Shown: positions 32,529 through 48,117 of the stretch, in pieces
Position numbering within the stretch: the first letter of the stretch is position 1
How the letters are laid out: the number at the start of each line of letters is the position of its first letter
Position numbers and translations under genes: made by a program
NCBI GenBank assembly: GCA_017619675.1
Contig: JAFZRX010000004.1
Location: 181,208-245,207, forward strand
Length of the DNA: 64,000 bases
Origin: Bacteroidales bacterium
GTDB lineage: Bacteria; Bacteroidota; Bacteroidia; Bacteroidales; UBA932
Direction: 5' to 3'
Notes under the pieces: generated by a model
The model's input: the letters and a program-made list of their open reading frames with translations, nothing else
What the model was told of the DNA's origin: nothing
Databases searched by the model: none

Positions 32529-33778
32529 GAAACCTCGCTCCCGTCGTCCTTGTTCAGGTTGCGGGTGAGGTACATGATGTACACCAGGAGGGCAAAGAGT
32601 ACCATTGTTCCTGCCAACAGGGCGTAAGTTTCCATCTGTAAGAGCACATAACTGAGAATGTAGGCAAGGGCTACCAGCGCGGTAAGGAGCCATGCCGAAC
32701 GGTCCCTCAGAATGCCGCGGAAGTACCCGAACAGCGCCGCTACGGTCATTACAGCGGCAATGGCGTAGGCCAGGGAGAAGTTCATGAATTCAGAGAAAGA
32801 AAGGACTATGGCATAGAAAAGCACCAGCGAGAGGCCTATTACCAGATATTGTACAATACTGATCTTTTTCTTCCCTACAAGTTCCACCGCCAGACCCGCA
32901 ATGAATACCAGCAATATCACCAGGATTCCATATTTGACAGAGCGCATAGTCTTCTGATACTGCGTCACACCATTTAGCAGGTTCACGCCAAAGGAAGTGT
33001 CGTCCGGCCGTCCGCGGTTTATCTCGGATACGGACCAATGGGCCGTAAAGCCGTCTTGCCTCACTTCCCTTTCAGAGGGCAGGAAGTCCCCTGTGAAGGA
33101 AGGATCCGGGCAATTGGAGTGCATCCTGACCTCCGTGGTTTCTCCGTAAGGCTTCACCATCAGGGAGGAAGATCCGCGGACCTTGTAGGTAAGCTGGAAC
33201 GGAATGACAGTTTCTCCATCCATCAACGCGGCGTCCAACTGGACAGGCTCCGTAAGCGAAACCATCCCGTTTTTATCGTCAGAGCCTGAATGGAAGGAAT
33301 ACGACTTCTCCCCCAGGGTTATCTCCACGGCACCGTCTATACCGCGCAGGTCGCTGAGCCCCACTGAAACTGACTGCCCGGTCAATTCCTTTTCACCATA
33401 TTCCGCAGGAATTATGAAATCTCCCTTGGCAACCACCTCAGCCCCATAAACCATTATGTCATAGATGGACCTATGCAGCGTCTGAGTAGGCAGGTTGATG
33501 TCATATGCGAGCGCCCGGGGGTATAAGGTGGCGCTTTCAGACCTGGTTACAGTCTTTTTATCGTTATCCATGACCTGGACATCATAGTAGAGTTTTAGAA
33601 CTGGGCCGGAGAGCGTCTGATCGCGCCCCCAACTGGCAGCCACTTCCCTCTGACTGGAGGAAGCGGCGGACTGGCGGTCATTGATCTGGATCTTGATCAA
33701 TGACAACGGTATCAGCATCAACAATGCAAGCGCGCCCGTCAGGGCAATCTTGGCTGTGAGAGAGTCTTTGAGTTTCAT
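32522..33778 (-). CDS. creD: CreD-family inner membrane protein
   Basis: A 418-residue membrane protein. The start at 33778 (MKLKDSLTAKI) is preferred; the longer frame begins within the operator-like repeat. One N-terminal membrane segment (about 11-30) is followed by a large extracytoplasmic domain (about 35-280), then a cluster of about five membrane segments to the C-terminus. The motif 'RGIDGAVEITLGEKSYSF' region and GVNLLNGVTQYQKTMRSVKYGILVI match CreD. CreD proteins are linked to envelope stress and beta-lactam response in Proteobacteria and Bacteroidetes. A wing-helix regulator often sits beside creD in this order but is missing here. Confidence 0.85.
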   Translation of the reverse strand: MKLKDSLTAKIALTGALALLMLIPLSLIKIQINDRQSAASSSQREVAASWGRDQTLSGPVLKLYYDVQVMDNDKKTVTRSESATLYPRALAYDINLPTQTLHRSIYDIMVYGAEVVAKGDFIIPAEYGEKELTGQSVSVGLSDLRGIDGAVEITLGEKSYSFHSGSDDKNGMVSLTEPVQLDAALMDGETVIPFQLTYKVRGSSSLMVKPYGETTEVRMHSNCPDPSFTGDFLPSEREVRQDGFTAHWSVSEINRGRPDDTSFGVNLLNGVTQYQKTMRSVKYGILVILLVFIAGLAVELVGKKKISIVQYLVIGLSLVLFYAIVLSFSEFMNFSLAYAIAAVMTVAALFGYFRGILRDRSAWLLTALVALAYILSYVLLQMETYALLAGTMVLFALLVYIMYLTRNLNKDDGSEVSQ

Positions 33779-33793
33779 AATTTGTGTGTAATT

Positions 33794-33844
33794 TTTACGC
33801 AAATATATAGCAATAATCGTGCACTTCCAAATATTTTGCGTAAA
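33794..33844. promoter_or_regulatory. perfect inverted repeat, putative operator of creD
   Basis: TTTACGCAAA (33794-33803) and its reverse complement TTTGCGTAAA (33835-33844) are separated by 31 bp. The centre-to-centre distance is 41 bp, about four helical turns. The left arm overlaps the creD -7 box. This is the arrangement expected for a looping or dimer-of-dimers repressor. The regulator is not identified. Confidence 0.5.
33800..33807 (-). promoter_or_regulatory. -7 box TATATTTG for creD
   Basis: It reads TATATTTG leftward, 21 nt before the creD ATG at 33778, overlapping the inverted repeat arm. Confidence 0.5.
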
Positions 33845-33886
33845 TTTTACATAAAATATTTTTCGCAGTTATTTAAAGGAGTTGAG

Positions 33887-33894
33887 TATATTTG
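33887..33894 (+). promoter_or_regulatory. -7 box TATATTTG for the TIR gene
   Basis: An exact TAnnTTTG match 8 nt before the ATG at 33903, giving a very short leader at most. Confidence 0.5.
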
Positions 33895-33902
33895 TAAAGA
33901 GT

Positions 33903-34874
33903 ATGGCCAAAGTATTCATCAGTTACGCCAAGAAGGACTACATTGCCGCGGACGGCAGCGCAGTCCCGGGCAACTGCGTGGACCCAATCCTGGATGCCTT
34001 CAGGCTGGAAGGAATCTCCTACTGGCTGGACCGGGAGGGACTGGCAGGAGGCGATACATACGCCGCCACCATTACTCAAAACATCAAGGACTGCGACGTA
34101 TTCCTGTTCCTGTCCTCACATGCGGCCAACGCTTCCGAATGGACCCGAAGGGAAATCAGCACCGCCGTTGCCAAAGGCAAGCGCATCATCCCCGTGCGGC
34201 TTGACAATTCTTCTTATGACGATGCCGTGAGCCTGTACCTCTCCCCCGTACAATATATTGACTGGAAGGAACTAGGCCGGGAAAAGGCCGTGGAGCGCAT
34301 CGTGGCTCTGGTCAAGCATCCTTCCATTGATGTAGCCAACGGCATAGAATACGGTAAACTCCCAAAGTTCACCACTGGAATCCTATATGCCGCCCTTGTG
34401 GTACTGACGGTCATCTACGCCTTTCTGACATACCTGTTCCTGTGGTCCAAGACCCTGCAGTCCAGCGAAGTGATCGGCGGCCTGATAGGATTCATCGGGG
34501 AGACCGGCCTGCTGCTGTCAATCTACTATGTCCTCAGGATGCTTCGGAAAAGGCGCTGCGTGTTCATTCTTCCTATCCTTCTTGTAGGCCTGTTCTTCTG
34601 CTCAGCCTTCCTTACAAACCGGCTGGACCTGTTCGTCTGCGCCGGTCTCCTTCTGCTGGGATGGCTCGCCCTGTTCCTCAGTTGCTTGGTAAAGACCCCT
34701 GGCAGGAAAAGTTTCTTTGAACAGATGAGCAAAGAACAGACAATGATGAAGCTCAACGATCCCGAGAACCTCATCATTGTCTATCTGGCGGTCAAATGCG
34801 CCATCGTTGTAATCGGGCACTGGTTCGAAGGCTTCATGAACCTCGCCCGCTTCCTGGAAAACTTCCGGTTCTAA
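33903..34874 (+). CDS. TIR-domain transmembrane protein
   Basis: A 323-residue protein. The start at 33903 follows the -7 box and begins MAKVFISYAKKD, the usual TIR opening. TIR covers about residues 1-140: box 1 VFISYAKKD, the loop YWLDREGLAGGDTYAATI, DVFLFLSS and W80-TRR-E84, the WxxxE motif carrying the glutamate needed for NAD cleavage in active TIR enzymes. Residues about 155-262 form four likely membrane segments (157-180, 189-211, 219-237, 243-262), with a possible fifth near 289-306. A membrane effector part joined to TIR is a known architecture of prokaryotic immune proteins, but no partner gene (STING, Thoeris, SIR2, CBASS) lies nearby. Defence function is therefore only a possibility. 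A REP array begins 23 nt after its stop. Confidence 0.78.
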   Translation: MAKVFISYAKKDYIAADGSAVPGNCVDPILDAFRLEGISYWLDREGLAGGDTYAATITQNIKDCDVFLFLSSHAANASEWTRREISTAVAKGKRIIPVRLDNSSYDDAVSLYLSPVQYIDWKELGREKAVERIVALVKHPSIDVANGIEYGKLPKFTTGILYAALVVLTVIYAFLTYLFLWSKTLQSSEVIGGLIGFIGETGLLLSIYYVLRMLRKRRCVFILPILLVGLFFCSAFLTNRLDLFVCAGLLLLGWLALFLSCLVKTPGRKSFFEQMSKEQTMMKLNDPENLIIVYLAVKCAIVVIGHWFEGFMNLARFLENFRF

Positions 34875-34896
34875 TTTTTCCCCCGCACGCAGTTTT

Positions 34897-34974
34897 CGTA
34901 CACCAGAGAGGGTTCTGGTGTACCAAATGGTTCTGGGAGGGCGTTTCGTACACCAAGAAGGCCTCTGGTGTACC
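34897..34974 (+). repeat. REP array A: two 28-bp palindromes, 50-bp period
   Basis: Two hairpins at 34897-34924 and 34947-34974 share the core GTACACCA and TGGTGTAC arms around a G-rich loop. Their starts are exactly 50 bp apart. The 22-bp linker (34925-34946, beginning AAATGG) resembles the linkers of array B at 46478-46605. The first copy has a longer stem; the second has mismatches beside the loop. The array lies in the 174-nt gap between the TIR gene and the sigma-54 regulator gene. The other end of that gap holds the regulator's promoter. Confidence 0.85.
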
Positions 34975-35013
34975 AAATATGCGTGGAGGGATTGGGAGTA
35001 TGGGAAAAAGTTG

Positions 35014-35036
35014 TAATTTTGTAAAGATTCTTTACA
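35014..35036 (+). promoter_or_regulatory. promoter plus operator-like palindrome of the sigma-54 regulator gene
   Basis: A TAATTTTG -7 box (35014-35021) runs into a perfect palindrome TGTAAAGATTCTTTACA (35020-35036, 8-bp arms, 1-bp centre). The ATG is at 35049. The palindrome would cover the transcription start, fitting autorepression by the regulator itself. Its half-site TGTAAAG recurs in the gap downstream of the kinase gene (37284-37330). Confidence 0.6.
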
Positions 35037-35048
35037 GTTTTTGGACCG

Positions 35049-36395
35049 ATGGCCTCTAAGATTGGGAAAATATTGGTAGTGGACGACAACGCTGGCATCC
35101 GCCGTGCGTTGGAAATCCTGCTGCCAGTTCACTTTGCTCAGGTGAAGACAATTCCTTCTCCGGCAACGCTGGTTTCAGAACTGGAACAGTTCCGCCCACA
35201 GGTGGTACTGCTGGACATGAACTTCAACACCAGCATCAATACCGGCAACGAAGGCCTCTACTGGGCGGGAGAAATAAAGAAGATGTCCCCTGAGGTGGAG
35301 GTAGTGCTGTTTACGGCATACGCCGATATTGCTCTTGCGGTGGAGGGAATGAAACGCGGCGCTTTCGACTTCATTGTGAAGCCCTGGGAGAATGACAAGC
35401 TGATTGAGGTGCTCACCGGCGCGCGCGACAAGGCGCTGAAGGCCATGCGGCCATTGCCTGGCATGGCCGAGGGCAACGTTGTCAGCGAAAGCGGAGACCA
35501 GATGTTCTGGGGCTCCTCCACTGCTATGAAAGCCATCCGCAAGACTCTGGAAAAGATCGCCCCTACCGATGCCACGGTGCTGATCACCGGAGAGAATGGA
35601 ACGGGCAAGGACGTGCTGGCGCGGGAAATCCACGCCCACAGTTTGCGCAAAGGCAAGCCAATGGTGGCAGTGGATGCCGGCGCCATCACTGAGACCCTTT
35701 TTGAAAGCGAACTCTTCGGCCACGTCAAGGGCGCCTTCACCGACGCGCACACTGACCACATCGGCAAGTTTGAGCAGGCCGACGGCGGCACGCTTTTCCT
35801 GGACGAGATCGGCAACATCCCGCCGCACCTGCAGGCTAAATTGCTGCGGGCTATCCAAAGCCGCAGCATTGTCCGCGTGGGCGGCTCGGAGGTCAAGCCT
35901 GTGGATATCAGGCTGATATGCGCCACCAACATGGACCTGGAGTCCCTGGTGCGCGAAGGCCGCTTCCGCGAGGACCTTTTCTACCGTATAAACACGGTGC
36001 ACATGGCGCTGCCGCCGCTGCGCGAGCGCAAGGAAGACATAGTTCCGTTGGCGGAACTGTTCCTTGGGCGCTTCGCGCAAAAGTACCACCGCCAGATGAT
36101 CGGGATATCCCCAGAAGCGGCAGAAGTGCTGAAAGGACACCGCTGGGGCGGAAACATCCGCGAACTTCAGAACTGCATAGAGAAGGCGGTGATCCTGTCC
36201 GACGGCAAGGAACTAACGGCCGAAGACATCCAACTGGATTCAAGGCCCGAGAATCCGCTCCGCAACGACGCGGAAGAAGAGAGGCTTGTGCGTGACGCAA
36301 TGCAGCGCAGCCGCGGCAACATTTCCGCGGCCGCCAAGCTGCTGGGCGTCAGCCGCCCCACCCTTTACGCAAAACTGAAAAAATACGGTCTATAG
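35049..36395 (+). CDS. sigma-54-dependent response regulator (NtrC family)
   Basis: A 448-residue cytoplasmic activator. The receiver domain (about 5-125) has acidic VVDDN, phospho-acceptor Asp56 (LLDMN) and VKPW Lys. The AAA+ sigma-54 interaction domain (about 150-385) has Walker A GENGTGKD, the sigma-54 contact loop GAFTDA, Walker B LFLDEIG and the arginine-finger region REDLFYRIN. A Fis-type helix-turn-helix ends the protein (NISAAAKLLGVSRPTLYAKL). It is followed by its kinase after 3 nt. Nearby DNA suggests it represses its own promoter and activates the efflux operon starting at 37431. Confidence 0.93.
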   Translation: MASKIGKILVVDDNAGIRRALEILLPVHFAQVKTIPSPATLVSELEQFRPQVVLLDMNFNTSINTGNEGLYWAGEIKKMSPEVEVVLFTAYADIALAVEGMKRGAFDFIVKPWENDKLIEVLTGARDKALKAMRPLPGMAEGNVVSESGDQMFWGSSTAMKAIRKTLEKIAPTDATVLITGENGTGKDVLAREIHAHSLRKGKPMVAVDAGAITETLFESELFGHVKGAFTDAHTDHIGKFEQADGGTLFLDEIGNIPPHLQAKLLRAIQSRSIVRVGGSEVKPVDIRLICATNMDLESLVREGRFREDLFYRINTVHMALPPLRERKEDIVPLAELFLGRFAQKYHRQMIGISPEAAEVLKGHRWGGNIRELQNCIEKAVILSDGKELTAEDIQLDSRPENPLRNDAEEERLVRDAMQRSRGNISAAAKLLGVSRPTLYAKLKKYGL

Positions 36396-36398
36396 AAT

Positions 36399-37274
36399 AT
36401 GCCTTTCTGGAGTATCATACTGATTGCACTGGCCACCGCGCTTCTGGCGTGGCTGGCCGCGTCCTTCCATACCAGGCGCAAGGACATCAAGAAGGTAGCC
36501 TATATGATGGACGCACTGGAAGACGGGGAACTCAACTTCCGTTTCCAGGACAAGAACAAGTTCAACCGTACGCTGAACCGTATCCGCACCATTTTCGAGA
36601 AACAACGCCAAGAGCACGAACAGGACTCCTGGACCAAACTCATACGCGTGCTCACGCACGAGATAATGAATACTGTCTCCCCTATCGCATCTCTTTCTGA
36701 CGCCATGGCAAAGTCCGTGGATGAGAACGGTCACAGCGAACTGGATATCAAAGCCGGCCTGGAGACAATCTCGGACAGTTCCAAGAACTTGATAGAATTT
36801 GTACAGACCTACCGCCAGCTCACAGGTGTCGCTAAGCCCATGCGCAAGGCCCTGGTACTCCAGGACCTTATGTCCAGTATTATAAGCCTTAACAGGGAAT
36901 TACTCGCTGCAAGCAATGCAGAATGTACCTTCAGCGCAGAGTCTCCGGACCTGATGATTTATGCCGATGAGGGACAGATATCCCAAATTCTTATCAACCT
37001 TATCAAGAACGCCCTGCAGGCTGGCGCCAGACACATAGAAGTGAGAGCCTCCATGAGCCCGGACGATGAAGTGATACTCCGCGTTGCAAATGACGGAGAG
37101 CCAATACCTGAATCGGCCCAAGAGCAGATATTTATCCCATTCTACACCACCAAGAAAGAAGGCTCCGGCATAGGGCTCTCCCTTGCCCGTCAGGTAATGC
37201 GAAACCACAACGGCTCAATTGAACTCCTGCACAGTGACGCAGATAAAACCGTCTTTGAACTACGCTTCCGTTAG
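36399..37274 (+). CDS. sensor histidine kinase without a sensor domain
   Basis: A 291-residue membrane-anchored kinase. One membrane helix (about 4-23) leads straight into a coiled linker and the dimerisation helix with phospho-acceptor His87 (LTHEIMN). The ATPase domain has N box NLIKNALQAG, G1 ANDGEP and G2 GSGIGLSLARQ. There is no periplasmic loop, PAS or GAF domain, so the input is probably a membrane-derived signal or a partner protein. It pairs with the regulator 3 nt upstream. The arrangement regulator-kinase-efflux is common in Bacteroidetes. Confidence 0.9.
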   Translation: MPFWSIILIALATALLAWLAASFHTRRKDIKKVAYMMDALEDGELNFRFQDKNKFNRTLNRIRTIFEKQRQEHEQDSWTKLIRVLTHEIMNTVSPIASLSDAMAKSVDENGHSELDIKAGLETISDSSKNLIEFVQTYRQLTGVAKPMRKALVLQDLMSSIISLNRELLAASNAECTFSAESPDLMIYADEGQISQILINLIKNALQAGARHIEVRASMSPDDEVILRVANDGEPIPESAQEQIFIPFYTTKKEGSGIGLSLARQVMRNHNGSIELLHSDADKTVFELRFR

Positions 37275-37283
37275 ACTGTACAC

Positions 37284-37330
37284 TGTAAAGTGTAAAGCCA
37301 AAAGTGTAAAGAACTGTAAAGACCTTTACA
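37284..37330 (+). promoter_or_regulatory. cluster of TGTAAAG half-sites, putative enhancer
   Basis: TGTAAAG occurs at 37284-37290, 37291-37297, 37305-37311 and 37315-37321, and its reverse complement CTTTACA at 37324-37330. The last pair forms TGTAAAG-AC-CTTTACA, nearly the same dyad as at the regulator promoter (35020-35036). It lies about 60-105 bp before the -24 element at 37387, a normal distance for an NtrC-family enhancer. Confidence 0.55.
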
Positions 37331-37337
37331 CTTTTTT
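37301..37337 (+). terminator. hairpin and T run after the kinase gene
   Basis: AAAGTGTAAAG (37301-37311) pairs with CTTTACACTTT (37324-37334), an 11-bp perfect stem, followed by T residues. It would end the regulator-kinase transcript and shares its bases with the half-site cluster. Confidence 0.6.
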
Positions 37338-37386
37338 GTTTTACAATTATCAGATAACCATCTGATTATCAATCTATTACTATAAG

Positions 37387-37401
37387 TGGCACGGCCAGTG
37401 T
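37387..37401 (+). promoter_or_regulatory. sigma-54 type -24/-12 promoter of the efflux operon
   Basis: TGGCACG at 37387-37393 is a perfect -24 element. After 4 bp the -12 element reads GTGT instead of TTGC, keeping one of the two conserved bases. The predicted start is near 37412, about 18 nt before the ATG at 37431. The neighbouring NtrC-type activator makes this match meaningful. Confidence 0.55.
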
Positions 37402-37430
37402 TACGATCTGTGGCGAATACGACTTTCGCT

Positions 37431-38795
37431 ATGATCAAAAGAATTAGATTGATGGTAATTTGTGCTGGATTCCTAGGGTCTGCCGCTATGGTGCAGGCCC
37501 AGGAGCCAGCGATGACCGGTCAAGCCGGCTATGACGGGCAGATGACGCTGCGGGAGTGTATGGAGTACGCCATTTCCAACTCCACCAAACTGCGCATCCA
37601 GCAGGCCGCGGGCAACGACGCCCGCATAGCCCGCCGGGATGCCGCGCTTGCCCTCTTTACCCCGGAGATCAGCGCCTCCACCTACTCTTACTACAACTTT
37701 GGCCGAAGCATCGACCCCCAGACAAACACATACTTCAATACCACCTCGTTCCACAACAATTACAGCGTGAGCGCAGGCTTTGACCTCTTCAACGGATTCA
37801 AGGCGGTGAACAACCTCAAGATTTCCAAGACGGGAATGCTTATCGCAGATTCTCAAGAGAAGCAGGCCGAGGCGGACATCTGCCTGGCCGTTATGGAAGC
37901 CTACTATAACGTGGTGTATTACAAGCGTTTGACTGATGTTTTCCTGGAGCAGGCCGCTACTGCCGAGCAGTCCCTCATAAAGGCCCGCCGCCAGGAGGAA
38001 CTGGGGCAGAAAGGCCATGCCGACGTGGTGCAGATGGAAGCCGACCTGGCTGACCGGCAGTACGACCTCACCAATACCTACAATATGTATCAGAGCCAGA
38101 AAATGACCCTTGCGGACCTTATGTTCTGGCCTCTTGACCAGGAATTGGATATTGTGACCGCGATGCCGCTCTGGGAAGTGGAACCGGTATCTACGGAGGC
38201 CGTAGTAGATTATGCCCTGGACCATAACCCTGCGGTGCAGATAGCCTCCTGGCAGGAGCAGAACGCCAGGCGCGAGCTGAGCACCGCCAAATGGCAGCTC
38301 CTGCCTTCCGTAGGCTTGTACGCCGGCTGGAGCACCAGCTACTATACCTACCAGGGTTCCCAGACCGCCCCATTCCAGAACCAGTTCCGCAACAACGGCG
38401 GCGAGTATGTGGAGATGAGCATCTCCATCCCTATCTGGGGCCGAATGAGCCGCGCTTCCAGGGTCTCCAAAGCCAGGAACGCCCTGACGCGCGCAAGCGC
38501 CGAGCTGGACCAGAAGCGCCGCGACGTGGAGAGCGAGGTGCGGCGCGCCATCCAGGACCGCGATGGCGCCGCGACGGCCTTCCAGCAGGCTCAGCGCAGG
38601 GCTGAGGTGCAGGAAGAGGCCTACACCCTGAATCTCAAGAAACTGGATCAGGGCCTGGTATCCCCTCTCGAGTTCCAGACAGCCAACAATAATTACCTAA
38701 AGGCCAAGGCCGACGAGATGAACAGCCTGTTCAACTACCTGATCAAGCAGGCCGTGGTTAAATATTACAACGGAATAGAATACATCAACCAATAA
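37431..38795 (+). CDS. TolC-family outer membrane efflux protein
   Basis: A 454-residue protein. The ATG at 37431 gives a signal peptide (1-24, ending VQAQ); an in-frame GTG at 37386 would place the start inside the promoter. The two OEP repeats are visible as alpha-helical stretches with 'LTLRECMEYAI' type start (TLRECMEYAISNS), 'AEADICLAVMEAYYNVVY' and, in the second half, DHNPAVQIASWQEQNARRELSTAKWQLLPSVGLYAGW. It forms the outer-membrane exit duct. It is the first gene of a five-gene operon with membrane-fusion protein, two FtsX-like permeases and one ATPase. Confidence 0.92.
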   Translation: MIKRIRLMVICAGFLGSAAMVQAQEPAMTGQAGYDGQMTLRECMEYAISNSTKLRIQQAAGNDARIARRDAALALFTPEISASTYSYYNFGRSIDPQTNTYFNTTSFHNNYSVSAGFDLFNGFKAVNNLKISKTGMLIADSQEKQAEADICLAVMEAYYNVVYYKRLTDVFLEQAATAEQSLIKARRQEELGQKGHADVVQMEADLADRQYDLTNTYNMYQSQKMTLADLMFWPLDQELDIVTAMPLWEVEPVSTEAVVDYALDHNPAVQIASWQEQNARRELSTAKWQLLPSVGLYAGWSTSYYTYQGSQTAPFQNQFRNNGGEYVEMSISIPIWGRMSRASRVSKARNALTRASAELDQKRRDVESEVRRAIQDRDGAATAFQQAQRRAEVQEEAYTLNLKKLDQGLVSPLEFQTANNNYLKAKADEMNSLFNYLIKQAVVKYYNGIEYINQ

Positions 38796-38797
38796 CT

Positions 38798-40054
38798 ATG
38801 GACAAGATTATTGAGAAGAAGACCGGTTGGAGGTCAGCGTTCACCAAAAAGGCCCTTCCATGGTGGCTGGGAGCGCTGCTGCTGGCGTTTGTGATTTACC
38901 TTATCGCACGTCCGAACAACAAGACCTTGCGCGTGGACAAGGATATCGTAACAATCTCCAATGCAGTCAAGGGCGAGTTCAATGACTACATCCGCCTAAG
39001 CGGACGCGTACAGCCTATGACCACCATCCAGCTGAGCCCGCAGGAGGGCGGCATCGTGGAGCAGATCCTCATAGAGGAGGGATCCCCAGTCAAGGCGGGC
39101 GATGCCATCCTGATACTGAGCAATGACAACCTTGACCTGTCCATCCTCAACTCCGAAGCCGAGCTCGCAGAGAAAGAGAACATCCTGCGCAACACGCAGA
39201 TCCAGATGGAACAGCAAAAACTGGACGTGCGCCAGAATGAACTTGAGTACGGAATCCAGGTGGAGCGCCTGCGCCGCGCCTATGAGCAGCAGAAGGCCCT
39301 CTACGAGGACAAGCTCATCGCCAGGGAAGATTATTTGAAAGCCGAAGAGGACTACAACCTAGCCCGCCAGAAATACGAGCTTATACGCGAGCGTTCAAGG
39401 CAGGACAGCCTGTACCGCGGCACCCAGATAGACCGTATGGAAGAGAGCCTGGAGAATATGCTCCAGAACATGCGCATGATTCGCCGCCGCAAGGAAGCCC
39501 TCATAGTGAAAGCGCCAATTGACGGCGAACTGGGCCTTCTGGACGTTGTACTGGGACAGAACATAGCCAGCGGAACCAAAATAGGCCAGATAAACTCCGT
39601 GGGCAACTACAAGGTTGAAGCCCAGATTGACGAACATTATATTGACCGCGTCACGGAAGGCCTGGAGGCCACTTTCGAGCGCCAGGGAGACACTTTCTCC
39701 ACCATTATACGCAAGGTATATCCGGAAGTCCGCGACGGCAAGTTCCAGGCAGATTTCCGCTTTGACGGCCAGCAGCCGGACAACATCCGCAGCGGCCAGA
39801 CCTACTACCTGAACCTCCAACTGGGCCAGCCGGAAGAGGCAATTATCATCCCCCGCGGCAATTTCTATCAAAAAACCGGCGGAAAATGGATATATGTGGT
39901 TAACAAAGAGGGCACAAAAGCCGTCAAGAGAGAGATACGTATTGGACGCCAGAATCCGCAATGCTATGAAGTACTGGAAGGTCTGGAGCCCGGCGAAAAA
40001 GTCATCACATCAGGTTATGACACATTTGGAGACAGTGACGTTTTAGTTTTTTAA
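38798..40054 (+). CDS. HlyD/MacA-type membrane fusion protein
   Basis: A 418-residue protein anchored by one membrane segment (about 21-37). The lipoyl/barrel-sandwich half-motifs flank a long coiled-coil: QLSPQEGGIVEQILIEEGSPVKAGD (about 75-100) and ALIVKAPIDGELGLLDVVLGQNI (about 230-252), with coiled-coil residues about 110-220. The beta-barrel and membrane-proximal domains follow. It bridges the ABC permease to the TolC-type protein. The start lies 2 nt after the previous stop. Confidence 0.92.
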   Translation: MDKIIEKKTGWRSAFTKKALPWWLGALLLAFVIYLIARPNNKTLRVDKDIVTISNAVKGEFNDYIRLSGRVQPMTTIQLSPQEGGIVEQILIEEGSPVKAGDAILILSNDNLDLSILNSEAELAEKENILRNTQIQMEQQKLDVRQNELEYGIQVERLRRAYEQQKALYEDKLIAREDYLKAEEDYNLARQKYELIRERSRQDSLYRGTQIDRMEESLENMLQNMRMIRRRKEALIVKAPIDGELGLLDVVLGQNIASGTKIGQINSVGNYKVEAQIDEHYIDRVTEGLEATFERQGDTFSTIIRKVYPEVRDGKFQADFRFDGQQPDNIRSGQTYYLNLQLGQPEEAIIIPRGNFYQKTGGKWIYVVNKEGTKAVKREIRIGRQNPQCYEVLEGLEPGEKVITSGYDTFGDSDVLVF

Positions 40055-40057
40055 GTT

Positions 40058-42388
40058 ATGAAGAGCTTTTGGAATTTTCTGAAAAAGAATAAGTTATATG
40101 GGGCAATCAACCTCCTTGGACTGACGGTCTCCATGGCTTTTGTGCTCTTGCTGGCAGCTTATGTCCAGCGACAGTTGTCCACGGATTCCTTCCAGAAGAA
40201 TGCGGACAGGATCTATGTGATTGCCAACGAGACTACTGTGACCATGGGCTATTGGCTGGACAAGCACCTTAAGAACAACTTTCCGGAAATTGAGAAAGGT
40301 TGCAGTGTTGCTATGATGTCAGCTGCCGCCCGTTATACAATTGGCGATGAAAGTGTCTATGGCAGCACTATGTCCGCGGACAGCACCTTCTTTGATATGT
40401 TCAGTTATGACCTGGTGGCCGGCAACAAAGCCGACTGGGCCGTCTCCTGGGACCGCTGCATGGTGAGCCAGGAATTCGCCAATGCACATTTTGGTGAGAA
40501 GGATCCCCTCGGACAGATTCTTACTTTAAAAGATGACGAAGGTTACGAGGATTTACAGCTGAGCATTTGCGGTGTCTATACGGATTTTGGAAACTCCATC
40601 CTCAAGGCGCCGGATGTGCTGGTCCGTGGCGAGTTGATGCCTAAAACAAACCCGGCTCACGATGAGTATATGAGCAATGCCGGAGGGGCTGTCTGTTTCG
40701 TCATGACCTACCCCGGAGCCGATCTCAATGCCAAGCATGGCCAGATTCTGGACTGGCTGGAAAACAACTTCTGGGTCTATGAGAGCAACTTCGACCAGGT
40801 CCGCATCATACCGCTCAGGGATGTGTATTTCCTGGAAAACGGGAACTACGACTGGACGGGAACGATCCATTTCGGCAACCGGGACCTCGTGAACCTGCTC
40901 CTGGCCATGTGCCTGTTGCTGCTGGCGTTCGCCGTGCTGAACTATATCAATATGACCACGGCGCTCACGGGCTTCCGTGCCAAGGAAATGGCAACCCGAA
41001 GGCTTGTTGGAGCCGACAAGAGGAGCATCTTCCTGAAAGTCATCTCTGAGAGCGCCCTCATCTGCGGTATTTCAATGCTGCTGGCCATCCTGTTGGCCGA
41101 AGCGCTCTCCCCGGCGGTTTCCCGCTTGCTGGAGTACCAGGTTTCCATCTTCAAGGCGGTTACGCCTGTCAATGTATTGCTGGTCCTTGGTTTTATCGTT
41201 GTGCTTGGACTCCTCTCGGGCATTGTCCCCGCACTGCTGATCCAAAAGGCACAGCCCATCGAGATCGTGCGCGGTTCGCTCCGGCTCAAGACTAAGACGG
41301 TCTATAGCAAGGTTATCATCATCGTTCAGAATGTAGTTACTGTCGTGATGCTTGTAAGTGCTTTCACAATGTGGCTTCAAATCCGTCATCTGGTCTCGTC
41401 GGATCTGGGATACAACACCAAGGACATCCTGGTGGTGAACAATGAATTCGGCACATCCTCCGACCTCCGTCCACTGCTGGACCGCCTGAGAGCTGAACCC
41501 TGTGTCGAAGAAGTGGGTCAAGGAAACGGCATTCCACTTGGAGGAACGAATAACATTACCATGGAAGTGAGCGCCGGGAACTGGGTGTCATATCAACAGA
41601 TTCAGGGAGATGACAAGTATTTCCAGATTCTGGGGTTGAAAGAAAAGCAGGACAACCATCAGAGCGGCTGGTGGCTCAACGAATATGCCTTCAAGCAGAT
41701 AGGCATCGAAGAATCGGAAATGGAATATGATACGGTTATGAGCGGGATCCTTCCTATCGGAGGTGTTTACTATGATTTCAAGGTGCGTCCGCTCGAATAT
41801 GCCCAAAGCGCAGCTCAGATTTTCAACTGGCATGAGAGCCCGGATGATAATATTCCCTGGGTGTTGCTGGTTAAGACGGTCGGAGACCACGCTTCAGCCC
41901 GCAAGCAAGTTGAGTCCATTACTGCAGAGTTTTTCCCCGACAGAATGTTCGATGCCAATTATATCGAGGAACAGATTGAAGAGGGTTTCAAAGATGAAAA
42001 ACGAGTGCTGGACATAGTATTTGTTTTTACGCTGCTCTCCGTTCTGGTTTCGGCCCTCGGGCTCTTTGCAATGAGCTCCTACTATATGCAGCAGGAAATC
42101 CGCAGCGTATCGGTGAAAAAGGTCTTCGGCGCCGAGTATTCAGGTGTGTTGAAGGAGCTGGTGATATCGTTTATGAAGATGGTGGGGATTGCCTTTGTGA
42201 TTGGAGTGCCTCTGGCCTGGTTCATTATGCACCGCTGGCTGAATGGCTTCGGCCACAAGATCAGCCTTCATTGGTGGATATTTGCACTAGCCGGTGTGCT
42301 TGTAGCTTTTATTGCCGCTGTCTCAGTTCTATACCAGAGTATCAAGACCGCCCGGACAAATCCAGCCGTAGCATTGAAGAAAGAATAA
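40058..42388 (+). CDS. MacB/FtsX-like ABC permease 1
   Basis: A 776-residue integral membrane protein. It opens with MKSFWNFLKKNKLYGAIN and a first membrane helix (about 20-35), a large periplasmic MacB core (about 45-270), then three helices with the FtsX signature (RAKEMATRRLVGADKR), and a repeat of that arrangement in the second half ending with SVSVKKVFGAEYSG. The fused double FtsX layout (about 780 residues) is typical for Bacteroidetes. It exports an unknown substrate by mechanotransmission with the ATPase below. The second permease (43087-45495) is a paralogue with the same opening. Confidence 0.9.
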   Translation: MKSFWNFLKKNKLYGAINLLGLTVSMAFVLLLAAYVQRQLSTDSFQKNADRIYVIANETTVTMGYWLDKHLKNNFPEIEKGCSVAMMSAAARYTIGDESVYGSTMSADSTFFDMFSYDLVAGNKADWAVSWDRCMVSQEFANAHFGEKDPLGQILTLKDDEGYEDLQLSICGVYTDFGNSILKAPDVLVRGELMPKTNPAHDEYMSNAGGAVCFVMTYPGADLNAKHGQILDWLENNFWVYESNFDQVRIIPLRDVYFLENGNYDWTGTIHFGNRDLVNLLLAMCLLLLAFAVLNYINMTTALTGFRAKEMATRRLVGADKRSIFLKVISESALICGISMLLAILLAEALSPAVSRLLEYQVSIFKAVTPVNVLLVLGFIVVLGLLSGIVPALLIQKAQPIEIVRGSLRLKTKTVYSKVIIIVQNVVTVVMLVSAFTMWLQIRHLVSSDLGYNTKDILVVNNEFGTSSDLRPLLDRLRAEPCVEEVGQGNGIPLGGTNNITMEVSAGNWVSYQQIQGDDKYFQILGLKEKQDNHQSGWWLNEYAFKQIGIEESEMEYDTVMSGILPIGGVYYDFKVRPLEYAQSAAQIFNWHESPDDNIPWVLLVKTVGDHASARKQVESITAEFFPDRMFDANYIEEQIEEGFKDEKRVLDIVFVFTLLSVLVSALGLFAMSSYYMQQEIRSVSVKKVFGAEYSGVLKELVISFMKMVGIAFVIGVPLAWFIMHRWLNGFGHKISLHWWIFALAGVLVAFIAAVSVLYQSIKTARTNPAVALKKE

Positions 42389-42406
42389 ATAATAAAAAAA
42401 CATATC

Positions 42407-43087
42407 ATGATTAAAGTAACTGATCTAAGCAAAATCTTCCGCACGGAAGAGATTGAAACCACCGCCCTCAATGGCGTTTCCTTCGAGATCAAGGACGGTG
42501 AGTTCGTAGCCATCATGGGCCCTTCTGGCTGCGGCAAGTCCACGCTGCTCAACATCCTTGGACTGCTAGACAATCCCACCAGCGGCTCGTATGAACTCCT
42601 TGGCACCGAAGTGGGCGGTCTGAAGGAGAAAGAGCGCACCAAATTCCGCAAGGGCAACATCGGCTTCGTGTTCCAGAGCTTCAACCTTATTGACGAACTC
42701 AATGTCTATGAGAATATTGAGCTTCCGCTCCGATACCTCAATATCAGCGCAGCAGAGCGCAAGCAGAAGGTCACGGACATAATGAAGCGTATGAACATCA
42801 GTCATCGCGCAGGGCACTTCCCGCAGCAGCTGTCCGGCGGACAGCAGCAGCGCGTGGCCATCGCCCGCGCCGTCGTGGCCGGCCCTAAACTGATTCTCGC
42901 GGACGAGCCCACCGGTAACCTTGACTCCAAAAACGGCAAGGAAGTGATGGACCTGCTGAAGGAACTGAACCAGGAAGGCACCACCATCGTAATGGTGACC
43001 CACTCCCAGAAAGACGCCGCCTGCGCCCAACGCACTATCGACCTCTTTGACGGCCAGATCGTCTCCGATGTCAAGAACGAACTTTAA
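42407..43087 (+). CDS. LolD/MacB-type ABC transporter ATPase
   Basis: A 226-residue cytoplasmic ATPase. Walker A GPSGCGKST (38-46), Q-loop VFQSFNLID, signature LSGGQQQR, Walker B LILADEPTGNLD and switch His VTHSQ are all present. It drives the FtsX-type permeases on both sides. Only one ATPase serves two permeases, so a heterodimeric permease is likely. Its stop overlaps the next start by one nucleotide (TAATG). Confidence 0.95.
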   Translation: MIKVTDLSKIFRTEEIETTALNGVSFEIKDGEFVAIMGPSGCGKSTLLNILGLLDNPTSGSYELLGTEVGGLKEKERTKFRKGNIGFVFQSFNLIDELNVYENIELPLRYLNISAAERKQKVTDIMKRMNISHRAGHFPQQLSGGQQQRVAIARAVVAGPKLILADEPTGNLDSKNGKEVMDLLKELNQEGTTIVMVTHSQKDAACAQRTIDLFDGQIVSDVKNEL

Positions 43088-45495
43088 TGAAATCCTACCT
43101 CAAGTTCCTATCCCGCAACAAGCTGTACACCGCCATTGAGGCGGTGGGGCTGGCCGTGAGCCTGGCGTTCGTAATCCTAATTGGATCGTACGTGGTGCAG
43201 CAATACCAGATGGCGCACGAGAATCCGGACTGGGAGCGAATCTATGTTCCCGGCAATGACAGCTATGCGGGTTTGGGCTTTTGGGATAAGGAAGAAATAG
43301 AAATGACCTTTCCCGAAGTGGAGAAGGCTACCAGGATGACCCTCCTTCAGTGCTCTGCCGTTGAATATGGAGGCCAGCTCTGCTCTGGTGTCGCCACCTG
43401 GGGATGGGAGGTTGATCCCGAGTTCTTTGACATCTATTCTTACCTGAAATGGGAGGCAGGATCCCCGGCTATGTTTGAAATCAAGGATGCCGTTGTTCTC
43501 AGCGAGCGGATGGCTATGCACCTGGCCCGGCAGAGTGGAGCCGACAATCCCGACCCATTCGGATCATTGATAGGAGAGTCCCTCAAAGTTGGCGACAACA
43601 GTTACCAGATTGTGGGTGTCGTCAATATTCCAGAGAACAGCATACTGCCCCAAATGGACATTATGGCGAATATTGCGTCTAATCACCAGGCCACTGACGG
43701 CAAGAATTTCAACAGTATAGGTAATGTCACCACTTTATGCCGCGTCCGGAAAGGAACGGACCGGACCGTTTTTGAAAAGAAAATACACGAACTCATAGTC
43801 AAGAATTATTCTCCTGTTTGGGGTGACCAGGTGCAAGGTTGGAAGATATGGCGGTCGGACGAATTGTTCTGGACGCCGGGTATAGCAAACAACGGTACCA
43901 ATAAGACAGGAAACAGACAGATGGTACAGCTGCTCACTGGCGTTGTGCTTCTCCTGCTGCTTTCGGCGATATTCAATTATATCAACCTCAATTTCGCACT
44001 CAGCGGGAAAAGAGCAAAAGAGATGGCTGTGCGTCGCCTGTTAGGGTCTGAACGCAGCGCCGTCCTGAGGAAGCATATAGGTGAGTCGGTGGCTTTCACG
44101 GCAGTGTGCTTTGCCGTTGCCTTGATTTTGGCAAAGTTGCTGGTGCCAATGATGAATCACCTCCTGACTACCCAGGATGACTGGCTTGCATTGGAAACGG
44201 ACATGAAGCTCCAGTTCCTGATGACACCGGGATACATCGCGGCTTATGTGGCCGGCATTCTGCTGCTTGGAACGCTCTGCGGGCTTCTCCCAGCCTTTAT
44301 GGCCGCCCGATACGAGCCAATAGACATCATCAAAGGTACGCTCCGTCGCAGGAACAAGATGGTGTTCAGTAAGGTGTGTATCATTGCCCAGAATGTCCTG
44401 GCAGTGTTCCTGATTGCAATGGCACTGGTGATGGAACTCCAGATGAAGCATATGCTGGGGAGGCCCACCAATTCGCAGGTGGACAACCGCTACTATATAG
44501 ACTACTACGCTACATCCTACGACCAGATGAAGCTGTTCAAGGACAAGGTGGAGAAGCTGCCGTTCGTGACAGGAGTCGGCGTCGGCCGCAATCTTCCGGG
44601 CTTCATAAACATGTCGGTAGGCGTCAAGCAGGAAGACGGCACAAGTCTCAACCTGCCGGTCATTCTGTGCGATACCGCCTATTTCCGCCTGATGGGTCTG
44701 GAAGTGCTGGAAGATTTCCATCACCCGCAATTGAACTCCATCTGGCTGGATGAAACGGCATTCAATACGGTGAGTGCTTCAGATAGTTCTTCATATTTCA
44801 GGAAGCGTGTGGGAATCAATGGGGCCAAAGTGGATTACATAGGTGGTGTAGTAAGGGATTTCCCTGTTGAATCGGCCTCATCCAGCGATGTTAAGACGCC
44901 CTATGCGGCCGTGATCATAACTCCTATGGAAGATATCTATTTCTCGCACGGCCTGCTCATAGGCACTGTTGGAGAAGACAAAGAGTATGAGCGGCAGATA
45001 ATGAAGGCTTATGAAGAATACCGCTTGGAGCAGACGGGTGTATATGAAGCACCCTGGAAGCACGGCTTTGTCCGCGACATTTACCGGCAGCAGCTGGATC
45101 CTGCAAGGCGAAGCCTGCGGCTTCTGGAGATTTTCACCGTCCTTGCGGTGCTTATCTCCCTGCTGGGCCTGCTGGCTATGAGCACCTATTTCGCCGATGA
45201 GAACACCAAACAGATAGCCATACGGAAGGTGTTTGGCTCGGATGTGTCTCAGGAAACCTGGCGTGCAGTTCGCAGTTATATGCTTATGGTGGGCGGAGCT
45301 TGCCTTGTCGGCATTCCGCTGGCCGTCTGGGCCTCCCGCATCTACCTGGAGCGCTTTGCCTATCGCGTTGAGGACTACGGATGGGTGTTTGTGGTGGCTG
45401 TGGCCATTTCGCTGGCCATTGCCTTTTGCACCGTCCTCTGGCAGACCCTCAAGGCCGCCCACACCAATCCGGCTGTAGAACTGAAAAAGGAATAA
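43087..45495 (+). CDS. MacB/FtsX-like ABC permease 2
   Basis: An 802-residue membrane protein parallel to permease 1: MKSYLKFLSRNKLYTAIEAVG opening, first helix about 19-38, periplasmic core, FtsX signature GKRAKEMAVRRLLGSERS, then the second half ending with IAIRKVFGSDVSQ and TLKAAHTNPAVELKKE. Both permeases share that closing motif (TNPAVxLKKE). The overlap with the ATPase gene shows translational coupling. It is the last gene of the efflux operon; the RAYT gene converges on it 19 nt later with no clear terminator between. Confidence 0.9.
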   Translation: MKSYLKFLSRNKLYTAIEAVGLAVSLAFVILIGSYVVQQYQMAHENPDWERIYVPGNDSYAGLGFWDKEEIEMTFPEVEKATRMTLLQCSAVEYGGQLCSGVATWGWEVDPEFFDIYSYLKWEAGSPAMFEIKDAVVLSERMAMHLARQSGADNPDPFGSLIGESLKVGDNSYQIVGVVNIPENSILPQMDIMANIASNHQATDGKNFNSIGNVTTLCRVRKGTDRTVFEKKIHELIVKNYSPVWGDQVQGWKIWRSDELFWTPGIANNGTNKTGNRQMVQLLTGVVLLLLLSAIFNYINLNFALSGKRAKEMAVRRLLGSERSAVLRKHIGESVAFTAVCFAVALILAKLLVPMMNHLLTTQDDWLALETDMKLQFLMTPGYIAAYVAGILLLGTLCGLLPAFMAARYEPIDIIKGTLRRRNKMVFSKVCIIAQNVLAVFLIAMALVMELQMKHMLGRPTNSQVDNRYYIDYYATSYDQMKLFKDKVEKLPFVTGVGVGRNLPGFINMSVGVKQEDGTSLNLPVILCDTAYFRLMGLEVLEDFHHPQLNSIWLDETAFNTVSASDSSSYFRKRVGINGAKVDYIGGVVRDFPVESASSSDVKTPYAAVIITPMEDIYFSHGLLIGTVGEDKEYERQIMKAYEEYRLEQTGVYEAPWKHGFVRDIYRQQLDPARRSLRLLEIFTVLAVLISLLGLLAMSTYFADENTKQIAIRKVFGSDVSQETWRAVRSYMLMVGGACLVGIPLAVWASRIYLERFAYRVEDYGWVFVVAVAISLAIAFCTVLWQTLKAAHTNPAVELKKE

Positions 45496-45514
45496 CCGTC
45501 CCTTTATTGTGGGG

Positions 45515-46447
45515 CTACTTGGCGCTCAGAGGGAAGAGGCTGTCCACCTCGTACTGGCTCAGGCCCAGCAATCGGCGGATCTGGCCGTTGGAGGAGCGGA
45601 AGTTGTAGTGAAGCGTTCGGGCGAGGTCCAACTTCTGAGCCTTGGACAACTCTCGGACGGAGGATATCCTGTAACGGTCGCGGATTATAGCGTGCACCTT
45701 GGAGAACATCTCGTCATCGGTCAGGAACTCCTGGTCATCCAATTCTTCGGCCAGCTCGCTATAGGCTTCAACGTTCTTTGTGAGTGCGCTGAAATAGTGG
45801 TGAGCGTCACGGAAAAGGCTCATTCCCAGCTTTATACTGCTATAAGCCGGAGGAGCGATGTAGCCGTCAATCATAGGCCAGTCTCCCGGCAACTCAGGAG
45901 CTCTCCCCCTGAACATCTGACGTTTGGGGCCCAGGAAAACATCGGAGTAACAATCTTTGAATGGAATATCATTGAAATAATACCTACCACTCCCCCAAGG
46001 ATAGCTGAACGGTGTGTGGCTGGGATTGGCGACATAGCCGTTACGGTTAGTATATACAATACAGTTCCTTATTGCAGATAGGTTCTCTAACGGCTTCAGG
46101 CTCAATTCCAGGTCCTTGACCCCGTCAATGGTTCTGGACAGACGTTTCCGGATGAAGGCAAAAAAAGCCTGGATGCTCTCTGGGTCTCCTACAAGAACAA
46201 AATGGAAGTGGTTATGCATTACCTCAAAGGCAATGATTACCACTCCACCACACCGACGTCCGGCTGGAGTATGGCGTGGACGGAATTCATATGCGGCCTG
46301 GGCGATGACGTTCATTACGAACGCCAGGTCTTCGGTCTTCACAAAAAGGACCGATGTGGTTTTTCCGGATGTGAATGCGTGCCAGTATGGGCCGTCCGCA
46401 TTGAAGATCAGTTCACATCCCCTTTCTTTGTCAATAAAGCTTTTCAT
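45515..46447 (-). CDS. REP-associated tyrosine transposase (RAYT, Y1/HUH)
   Basis: A 310-residue protein of the Y1/IS200-like single-strand DNA transposase family. The HUH motif is HFH (His80, Phe81, His82 in HNHFHFVL), and the best candidate for the catalytic tyrosine is Tyr132 (CIVYTNRNGYV). The C-terminus has a helix-turn-helix-like part (SVRELSKAQKLDLARTLHYNF...QIRRLLGLSQYEVD) seen in Bacteroidetes homologues. A longer frame reads through the adjacent REP hairpin, so I set the start at 46447 (or 46459). Unlike IS200 elements it has no terminal inverted ends of its own. Array B starts 30 bp upstream. It is expected to cut and join single-stranded DNA at REP hairpins. Confidence 0.82.
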   Translation of the reverse strand: MKSFIDKERGCELIFNADGPYWHAFTSGKTTSVLFVKTEDLAFVMNVIAQAAYEFRPRHTPAGRRCGGVVIIAFEVMHNHFHFVLVGDPESIQAFFAFIRKRLSRTIDGVKDLELSLKPLENLSAIRNCIVYTNRNGYVANPSHTPFSYPWGSGRYYFNDIPFKDCYSDVFLGPKRQMFRGRAPELPGDWPMIDGYIAPPAYSSIKLGMSLFRDAHHYFSALTKNVEAYSELAEELDDQEFLTDDEMFSKVHAIIRDRYRISSVRELSKAQKLDLARTLHYNFRSSNGQIRRLLGLSQYEVDSLFPLSAK

Positions 46448-46477
46448 AGTTCTAATCATTGTTGGTTCGGTATGTTT

Positions 46478-46605
46478 GGTACACCAGAGGGGGTTCTGGT
46501 GTACCAAATGGGTCCGGAGAGAGGTTTCGTACACCAGAGGGGGTCCTGGTGTACCAAATGGGTGCGGGAAGGGGGTTCGTACACCAAAGGGGGTTCTGGT
46601 GTACG
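46478..46605 (+). repeat. REP array B: three 28-bp palindromes, 50-bp period
   Basis: Hairpins at 46478-46505, 46528-46555 and 46578-46605. The first is a perfect 11-bp stem with arms GGTACACCAGA and TCTGGTGTACC around a GGGGGT loop; the others carry one or two changes. The starts are exactly 50 bp apart. The linkers (46506-46527, 46556-46577) both begin AAATGGGT and are purine-rich. Orientation matches array A. The array sits between the RAYT gene and the 3' end of the carboxylesterase gene. Confidence 0.9.
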
Positions 46606-46617
46606 AATAGCTGGGGG

Positions 46618-48117
46618 CTATTTGACAGGGCGGCCCATTTCGGAGGCTTCGGCGTCGGAGGCGTCAAGTTTGAAGACCATGAAGTTGTCGTTCTCCTTGG
46701 TGCAGGGGGTCCATTCGCCGCCGTCGGGGCCGTTGGGATCGCTGTACTTGGCGAAGTTGGTCCAGGCGGTAATCATCTTCTCCGAAAGGTCCCAGTCTCC
46801 CTGGGTCCAGGGGCGCCAGCAGTGCTGGAGGGACTTGAACACGAACCAGAGGTCCGATGAGTGGAAGGCGCCGGTGAGTTTGTCCTCCGGATGGGAGCCA
46901 TCGTCCGGGAGCGGGCGGGCGAACTCGTACGCCCAGGCCTTGCTCCCCTTCTCCTGGCGGTCCTGGCAGAACGCCGCGATTCCGGCGGACATATCGGCCA
47001 TGTCGTTCATGGTGTAGCCTATCATGTAAGGAACGTCGGCCAGGGTGCCGTCTGCGGCGGCATCGTCAAAGACTTCCAGGGAAACGTGGCCGTCGATGAT
47101 TGGAGTGATGGTGATGCCGGGCTTTCCGGTGGCCTGCGTGTAGAGGGTGGTGGCGGCATGGACTGTCTCCGTGGCCGCGGCGCGCAGTTGCTGCGCCGTG
47201 GTGAGGCCGGCCCAGTCCATGACGGCCTTGGCCTCAGCCTCGGCCTCCTGGAGGGTCTGGCCGCCGAACATCATCTTTATCATGGAAGGCGGAACCACAG
47301 GTCCGGCCGCCAGCCTGAACTGCTGGTTCTTGTCAACATTGAGGCCGTTGGCGCTCATGATGACAGCCTTGTGGAAGTAGGGCTTGGCCAGCGGTGAGGC
47401 GCAAAGCGCCCTGACGCTGCCGCCGCCCGCGCTTTGCCCGAATATCATCACGTTATCCGGATCTCCGCCAAACTGCGCTATATTCTTTTTCACCCATTTC
47501 AGGGACTCTATCTGGTCCAGGATGCCGTAATTGCCCGATACGCCGTACTCGCTCTCCGCGGAAAGCGCAGGATGAGCCATGAACCCGAAGATACCAAGGC
47601 GATAGTTGATGGACACCAGGACCACGTCCCTTGCGGCCCACTCCTGGGCGTCGAACTCCGGCTCGGAGCCCCAGCCCTCGCGGTATCCGCCGCCATGGAT
47701 CCACACGGCCACAGGGGCCTTGCGGTCCACCTGGCCCGGATACTTGGTCCACACGTTCAGGTAAAGGCAGTCCTCGCTGCACTGCTTCTCCTCCCCGTAT
47801 CCCCACTCTGTAAAGTAGTTGCCGGGATAATGCACGGCCTGATAGCTTGGATGGCCGAACTCATCGGCCTTGAGGACACCCTCCCAGGGCTTTACCGGCT
47901 GGGGTTCCTTCCAGCGCAGTTCTCCAATTGGAGGTGCGGCGTATGGGATTCCCTTGTATACAAATACACCCGGAAGGTCGGCCTTTACGCCCTGTACCTG
48001 TCCCCCTTCAATTGAAAGGACGGGACTGAGATTACTGACTTGTTCAACTGAACTGTTGCATGCGGCAAAAGACACTGCCAAAGCAACGAAAGCGAAGATT
48101 CTGATTAAGTTTTTCAT
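46618..48117 (-). CDS. type B carboxylesterase lipoprotein, paralogue
   Basis: A 499-residue lipoprotein (FAAC, lipid Cys20). It has the same motifs as the enzyme at 16186: SEDCLYLNVW, HGGGY (141-145), GQSAGGGS (Ser229), GAFHSSDLWF for His, and GYTMNDMA where the triad Glu would be, so an Asp is the likely third residue. The two proteins align over their length but differ clearly, so the duplication is old. It probably de-esterifies carbohydrate or small esters outside the inner membrane. A -7 box lies 5 nt before its ATG. The 3' end reaches the REP array. Confidence 0.87.
   Translation of the reverse strand: MKNLIRIFAFVALAVSFAACNSSVEQVSNLSPVLSIEGGQVQGVKADLPGVFVYKGIPYAAPPIGELRWKEPQPVKPWEGVLKADEFGHPSYQAVHYPGNYFTEWGYGEEKQCSEDCLYLNVWTKYPGQVDRKAPVAVWIHGGGYREGWGSEPEFDAQEWAARDVVLVSINYRLGIFGFMAHPALSAESEYGVSGNYGILDQIESLKWVKKNIAQFGGDPDNVMIFGQSAGGGSVRALCASPLAKPYFHKAVIMSANGLNVDKNQQFRLAAGPVVPPSMIKMMFGGQTLQEAEAEAKAVMDWAGLTTAQQLRAAATETVHAATTLYTQATGKPGITITPIIDGHVSLEVFDDAAADGTLADVPYMIGYTMNDMADMSAGIAAFCQDRQEKGSKAWAYEFARPLPDDGSHPEDKLTGAFHSSDLWFVFKSLQHCWRPWTQGDWDLSEKMITAWTNFAKYSDPNGPDGGEWTPCTKENDNFMVFKLDASDAEASEMGRPVK

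Follow-up and report, generated by a model that had tools for sequence, protein, structure and literature searches.

A likely REP/RAYT-like system in Bacteroidales: head-to-tail hairpin arrays with a 50-52 bp period beside a divergent Y1/HUH protein family

Repetitive extragenic palindromes (REPs) and REP-associated tyrosine transposases (RAYTs) are among the closest described relatives of a locus in a 64,000-nt stretch of a Bacteroidales genome (GCA_017619675.1, contig JAFZRX010000004.1, positions 181,208 to 245,207 of the forward strand; referred to as the window). According to the available parts of PMC2817692, PMC3116915 and PMC8266576, gammaproteobacterial REPs have a GT[AG]G foot and are mainly found in inverted pairs, with segments of variable length between them within bacterial interspersed mosaic elements (BIMEs), and the rayt gene is likewise flanked by inverted REPs. 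A preliminary description of the window called REP/RAYT systems best known from Proteobacteria, which needs the qualification that RAYT-like proteins are already known in Bacteroidetes. These belong to the TnpAY1 subclass 2.6, or RAYT group 5, for which the accessible portion of PMC6006769 gives palindromes of atypical structure, without GT[AG]G and with copies elsewhere in the genome. The window holds two arrays of REP-like hairpins and a gene for a RAYT-like Y1/HUH protein. Together with its relatives, this protein probably represents a divergent Y1/HUH family of Bacteroidales with a REP/RAYT-like system, in which a unit of palindrome plus linker is held at 50-52 bp and processed by the enzyme.

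Five hairpins with GTACACC…GGTGTAC arms were present in the window, two in array 1 and three in array 2. All had one orientation and their starts were exactly 50 bp apart in both intergenic arrays, which confirms the preliminary description. The hairpin sequence is GTACACCAGA. Its core comprises 26 bp and some copies extend to 32-34 bp, so the hairpin stands and the claimed length of 28 bp does not. The linkers, previously called similar, are partly conserved between copies. Array 2 sits between the transposase gene and a carboxylesterase gene. It does lie next to the transposase gene, at 32 bp from the coding sequence to the first hairpin instead of the 30 bp given earlier. The transposase starts with the ATG of MKSF..., and another in-frame ATG is located at 46459. 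A scan of the whole 64 kb for hairpins with a near copy (second copy at least 75% identical at 25-130 bp) returned the two known arrays and nothing else. The features are as follows.

34898..34923, no strand assigned: REP-like hairpin, array 1 copy 1, palindromic with 10-bp arms and a 6-nt loop
34948..34973, no strand assigned: REP-like hairpin, array 1 copy 2, 50 bp from copy 1
45515..46447, minus strand: RAYT-like Y1/HUH transposase of 310 aa, with HFH at 80-82, candidate catalytic Y132 in YTNRNGY and a conserved C-terminal region
46479..46504, no strand assigned: REP-like hairpin, array 2 copy 1, adjoining the RAYT start codon
46529..46554, no strand assigned: REP-like hairpin, array 2 copy 2, 50 bp further
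46579..46604, no strand assigned: REP-like hairpin, array 2 copy 3, 50 bp further

Pfam and NCBIfam scans of the 310-aa protein gave no match, and no match to Bac_DnaA_C was found in its conserved C-terminal region. A profile search of the PDB returned only four matches, all of them Y1 transposases and all weak (E 0.047 to 0.27). The window's own genome (G000) encodes five homologues with 25-40% identity. One of them, C16:123911-124645, was related to the window protein at E 3e-17 and reached 24.3 bits against PF01797 in one run and 22.9 in another, the cut-off being 23. H80, H82 and Y132 were invariant in all 29 aligned proteins, the window protein included, in agreement with the HFH at residues 80-82 and Tyr132 of the preliminary description. 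Further invariant residues were M77, N136, G137, T145, P146, F147, Y149, P150 and W151, as well as Q289 and R292 near the C-terminus. We regard membership of the protein in the Y1/HUH superfamily as well supported, with homology and motifs as the basis for its predicted fold, and no published Y1 subclass was found to include it closely. The enzyme has an HUH motif and a single putative catalytic tyrosine, as in REP/RAYT, and catalysis itself is predicted. A RAYT-like Y1/HUH protein beside hairpin arrays, as originally proposed, is supported. The paralogues L018-L020 of G000 (287 aa, NHVH, YVQMN) may be closer to subclass 2.1.2. Two of these distant paralogues, L018 and L019 (G000:C15:47865-48710 and C16:123911-124645), have tandem palindromes of their own, 52 bp apart, so that the spacing extends beyond the window subfamily.

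Homologues were detected in 44 of 199 sampled family genomes at E <= 1e-20 and in 43 of 101 genus genomes at E <= 1e-30, and the viral contigs searched yielded no relative. The 31 loci from the genome-contig collection were named Bacteroidales, Bacteroidia, Rikenellaceae, Candidatus Cryptobacteroides or Candidatus Cacconaster. Removal of five duplicates from 106 loci left 101 distinct homologue loci. Four of 76 homologue matches (G144, G167, G134:C88 and G109) were left out of this set, and estimated gene ends were used for four loci that lacked a complete open reading frame. The flanks were scanned for hairpins over 500 bp on each side of the gene, with a second same-strand copy 25-130 bp away. 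Tandem hairpins were found at 36 of the 101 loci and at 0 of 159 control segments located 1,000-1,500 bp away. The shortest spacing was 50-52 bp at 33 of the 36 positives, 102 bp at one, 41 bp at L126 and 65 bp at L132. The last two loci were dropped from the step counts, the period labels of the tree, the linker and strand count and the foot test. At the remaining 34 loci, whose hairpins differ from one another, 155 successive steps were counted, ignoring steps of at least 220 bp: 31 of 50 bp, 96 of 51, 23 of 52, one of 53, three of 102 and one of 204. Hence, 150 steps measured 50-52 bp and four more were multiples of 51.

The same period was recovered by an autocorrelation that is blind to hairpins (lags 30-130). 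The best lag was 50-52 near 61 of the 101 genes vs 5 of the 159 distant segments (Fisher p 3e-26); after dinucleotide shuffling of these flanks, 8 of 303 shuffled sequences had it. Strong repeats (>=28/40) were present at 60 of the 101 loci, 45 of them at lag 50-52 and seven more at 100-104; three distant segments showed a strong repeat at 51, 102 or 103. Six of eight further genus loci had their best lag at 50-52 and one more at 102, with L191, L194 and L195 set aside as duplicates of L087, L076 and L075. In a quick-search tree of 97 proteins, from which the four loci with estimated gene ends are absent, the period needed six changes, compared with a mean of 11.8 after shuffling, and none of 200 shuffles was as low. 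The period follows the protein tree, with 50 in most of the window clade, 51 in most others and 52 in five. The window clade also includes a 51-bp group (L031, L066 and L068), and a lone 50 far off belongs to L125. The period is a property of the protein family, common to many different hairpins, and the emphasis placed on it in the preliminary description was justified.

Thirty PF01797 gene loci from the same family of genomes served as controls, with flanks of 900 bp in the autocorrelation vs 500 bp for the RAYT-family loci. Tandem hairpins were found at three of them (71-72, 91/110 and 118 bp) and at none with 50-52 bp, and the best autocorrelation lag was 50-52 in 2 of the 30. Strong repeats occurred at 13 of these loci with lags from 33 to 118, one of the 13 at 50-52. 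The E. coli rayT locus gave one match in the hairpin scan, at 101 bp. Y1 genes in these genomes often have regular repeats next to them, and it is the fixed 50-52 period that marks the RAYT family, not wholly exclusively. One control, L166 (G063:C175), is a 2.5-kb locus with several CCGCAGGTC palindromes in 71-72 bp steps around a canonical PF01797 gene.

The hairpins vary by locus, with TTGTGCAGG at L047, CGAGCAGGTT at L056 and CCGTCCAT at L040. They are not all unrelated, since some loci have a GTGCAAA-like hairpin core in common. GT[AG]G stood at the hairpin foot at 3 of 33 loci, compared with a random background of 6.7%; the thirty-fourth locus, L037, gave no hairpin in this test. Linkers and strands were counted at 22 of the 34 loci, the 12 omitted ones having two to four copies. 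Five of 136 steps deviated from the mode of their own array, by 1-2 bp, and neighbouring linkers differed at 655 of 2189 sites (30%). L115 had about 16 differences per 23-nt linker, yet 14 of its 16 steps were exactly 51 bp. Mean column identity at ten loci was 0.95 in the arms vs 0.82 in the linkers. The step and linker counts show a length constraint on the array unit and suggest that the unit keeps its length while its sequence changes. A unit of hairpin plus linker, suggested in the preliminary description, is also supported. Units lay on the same strand in 138 cases vs 12 on the opposite strand, and 11 of the 12 belonged to L081. In this locus (CACYZM010000037.1), about 1.37-1.93 kb upstream of the RAYT, two hairpin units alternate in the order A-B-A-B, and close copies have a period of 102 bp with the hairpins still at 51 bp. 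The side of the array varies by locus between upstream, downstream and both sides of the gene.

A covariance model of the window hairpin was built from seven copies, five from the window and two from contig C7. In the 2.04-Mb own genome, with 150 of 317 candidates scored, it matched nine copies at five loci. Five of them are those of the window, C7 has a pair that keeps the 50-bp step, and C14 and C6 have a single copy each. The next-best match elsewhere in this genome, among the same scored candidates, had E = 4.5. An exact pattern match at C6:8099 was taken as chance and is absent from the covariance-model matches. Confinement of the hairpins to the two window loci had been named as grounds for abandoning the proposal, and the copies on C7, C14 and C6 lie outside them. 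The many intergenic copies that had been expected were not found among the scored candidates, and the window hairpin is a low-copy REP family. On C14, apparent decayed hairpins of the C4 paralogue were seen by eye beside the single window-type hairpin (G000:C14:400-600, L003), which would place two REP classes at one site.

Under stricter filters, the model matched 1 of the 199 sampled family genomes, the own genome only. This bears only in part on the expectation that the hairpin occurs only where the RAYT is present, which is complicated by G199, a genus member outside this sample. Two decayed hairpins of the window type, with a step of 50 bp, lie at a contig end of this genome (G199:C54:12172-12284, L185) and may be a relic. 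Its RAYT, 66% identical to the window RAYT, is flanked by arrays of another hairpin with the same 50-bp step. Array 1 of the window sits between a TIR-domain gene (end 34874) and a sigma-54 response-regulator gene (start 35049). No GTACACC/GGTGTAC string was present at this site in relatives, in seven of seven loci around the orthologous response-regulator gene. The genes flanking the site are on different contigs in G215 and G291, so no clean empty site was obtained. The TIR-domain gene adjoining array 1 (window 33882-34874) matched PF13676 and more weakly ThsB_TIR PF08937, and the C-terminal half of its protein has a membrane-bound look, judged by eye.

In this family of gut bacteria, many copies of the enzyme are accompanied by their own palindrome. 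The L040 hairpin of G114 occupied 37 distinct places on eight contigs (43 matches, six of which were the same place on both strands). On C12, 20 of these places flanked the RAYT, with some on either side. The other 17 were spread over seven further contigs, and steps of 51 bp recurred away from the enzyme on C4, C49 and C52. Arrays that lie apart from the enzyme and keep the step are thus present at window position 34898, on C7 of the own genome and on these G114 contigs. The hairpin patterns of G114 and G172 were each found in one of five genomes searched.

For the REP/RAYT-like system, we infer nicking and enzyme-driven growth of the arrays. Most probably, a RAYT dimer would bind a pair of neighbouring hairpins that lie on the same strand of single-stranded DNA. 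IS200/IS605 elements have two hairpins on one strand as their ends, a model that is borrowed here. The dimer would cut both hairpins at the same relative place and join the ends, by analogy with the left and right ends of IS200/IS605, and one unit would be taken out or copied in. The enzyme would set the distance between the two bound hairpins, with only one spacing being productive. This would allow arrays to expand and disperse by a constant step, with the sequence of the hairpin and the specificity of the enzyme changing in concert. A circularised module was proposed for BIMEs by Nunvar and colleagues in the available part of PMC2817692, and by comparison the module here would be a single unit. 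A stronger form of this mechanism is possible, and we put it forward tentatively: a length-measuring HUH recombinase whose dimer would act on a pair of head-to-tail hairpins only at a distance of about five helical turns and would move or copy fixed units of 50-52 nt, for example via a one-unit single-stranded circle. The five turns are a numerical remark and not evidence. If true, a recombinase of this kind would build tandem repeats with length as the conserved signal and sequence free to change.

An unlikely explanation is that the arrays, as hairpin-rich repeats, grow through ordinary slippage during replication or through unequal crossing-over; the period would then go back to an ancestral unit of 51 bp, and the RAYT would be a bystander or occasional mover. 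This explanation would fit L047, L056 and L040, where adjacent units closely resemble each other down to the linker, and the alternating units of L081 repeat as 102-bp pairs, as expected from unequal exchange. Next to other Y1 genes, tandem repeats mostly have other periods, which also indicates that no fixed length is required there. However, slippage would allow other unit lengths, whereas nearly all steps fall at 50-52 bp across different hairpins, and heavily substituted linkers such as those of L115 keep their length. With slippage on an inherited unit, the close copies are accounted for, but a length maintained through changes of linkers and hairpins is not. The hairpins could alternatively form a binding platform, in which RAYT or another protein occupies successive palindromes on one face of the DNA double helix, either for autoregulation or to control genes nearby, and in which length is kept for binding rather than mobility. 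The start of the window array 32 bp from the RAYT start codon and a period that would lie near five helical turns are compatible with such a role. It is made improbable by the varying position of the arrays, the existence of dispersed copies and the intact HUH/Tyr centre of the protein. That the hairpins act as RNA, in a transcribed and processed repeat array of CRISPR-like or attenuator-like kind, is hardly credible. Regular hairpins with short linkers resemble repeat arrays at first sight, but linkers within the arrays compared are alike, unlike CRISPR spacers, and no cas-like family was found among ten neighbouring proteins scanned. A CRISPR array was rejected on these grounds, and an Rfam RNA was rejected after no match was obtained in window 33000-48000 at E up to 1.

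Several observations weigh against the REP/RAYT-like reading. The hairpin criterion failed at 65 of the 101 loci and the hairpin-blind criterion at 40. The spacings of L126 and L132 are odd among the positives, and we take them as chance. At L158 (G050:C217, about 690-840), the one PF01797 control with a strong repeat at 50-52, an exact 51-bp tandem repeat with the short palindrome CCGTCCC-TGA-CGGGACGG directly follows a gene of another Y1 type, and the 50-52 period is therefore not exclusive to the RAYT family. The tyrosine motif of the Y1 protein of L158 (153 aa, YIINQSEHHKK) resembles that of TnpAY1 subclass 1.2, which is reported without REPs in the accessible portion of PMC6006769. The share of coding DNA is probably higher in the distant segments than in the near flanks, which makes the shuffles and the PF01797 loci the better controls. 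The shuffle control supports the REP/RAYT-like reading, and L158 and the duplicate follow-up loci weaken it slightly. Among 1029 arm pair cells from ten loci, four were compensated, 45 were G-T and 92 broken, and covariation within these arms gave no evidence for kept pairing. Dispersal was low in G172, where all 10 hairpins were at the RAYT locus, and the own genome has a low copy number, with nine copies only. The mismatch in G199 between a decayed window-type array and a RAYT with another type of hairpin contradicts a perfect pairing of enzyme and hairpin. When the profile was compared with one E. coli RAYT, the alignment fell in the correct place but was weak (probability 2.4%).

In the multiplication of REPs, the moving unit and the role of the RAYT have been deduced mainly from genome patterns. 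Dozens of enzyme-hairpin pairs with nearly one spacing point to a unit of hairpin plus linker of 50-52 nt. The family provides natural enzyme-hairpin pairs with which binding, nicking and spacing could be assayed. It also widens the range of RAYT-like systems, which now includes proteins undetected by the Pfam Y1_Tnp model and palindromes without a GT[AG]G foot.

The present system and IS200/IS605 elements (IS608, ISDra2) have Y1/HUH homology in common, but the repeat unit here is without the enzyme gene. With REP/RAYT (TnpAREP, REPtron), as far as described in the available parts of the literature, it shares a Y1/HUH gene with its own family of palindromes on the flanks, further genomic copies of these palindromes and several RAYTs per genome, each with its own palindrome. 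It differs in its head-to-tail order and step of 50-52 bp, in contrast to the inverted pairs and variable segments there. The comparison with the TnpAY1 subclasses draws on the accessible portion of PMC6006769, in whose main text the words spacing, tandem and head-to-tail are absent. Occurrence in Bacteroidetes, flanking palindromes without GT[AG]G and genomic copies elsewhere are as in subclass 2.6, whereas the protein differs, with 310 aa and YTNRNGY here and a median of 179 aa and YIH[QN]NP there. A long protein with a C-terminal extension resembles subclass 2.1.2 of that paper, which is marked by a Bac_DnaA_C or HTH domain at the C-terminus. In contrast to subclass 2.1, for which this portion reports no REP-like sequence, L018 and L019 have tandem hairpins 52 bp apart. 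Among the matches listed in a literature search, no description of fixed-period head-to-tail REP arrays was found at the level of titles and beginnings of abstracts, and an earlier mention is possible. Two usual features of REP/RAYT failed here, the GT[AG]G foot and the inverted pairs of BIMEs and REP doublets (REPINs). Because the system resembles REP/RAYT but fails these two features, we read its sequences as those of a new REP/RAYT variant, with head-to-tail order, a fixed period and no GT[AG]G foot.

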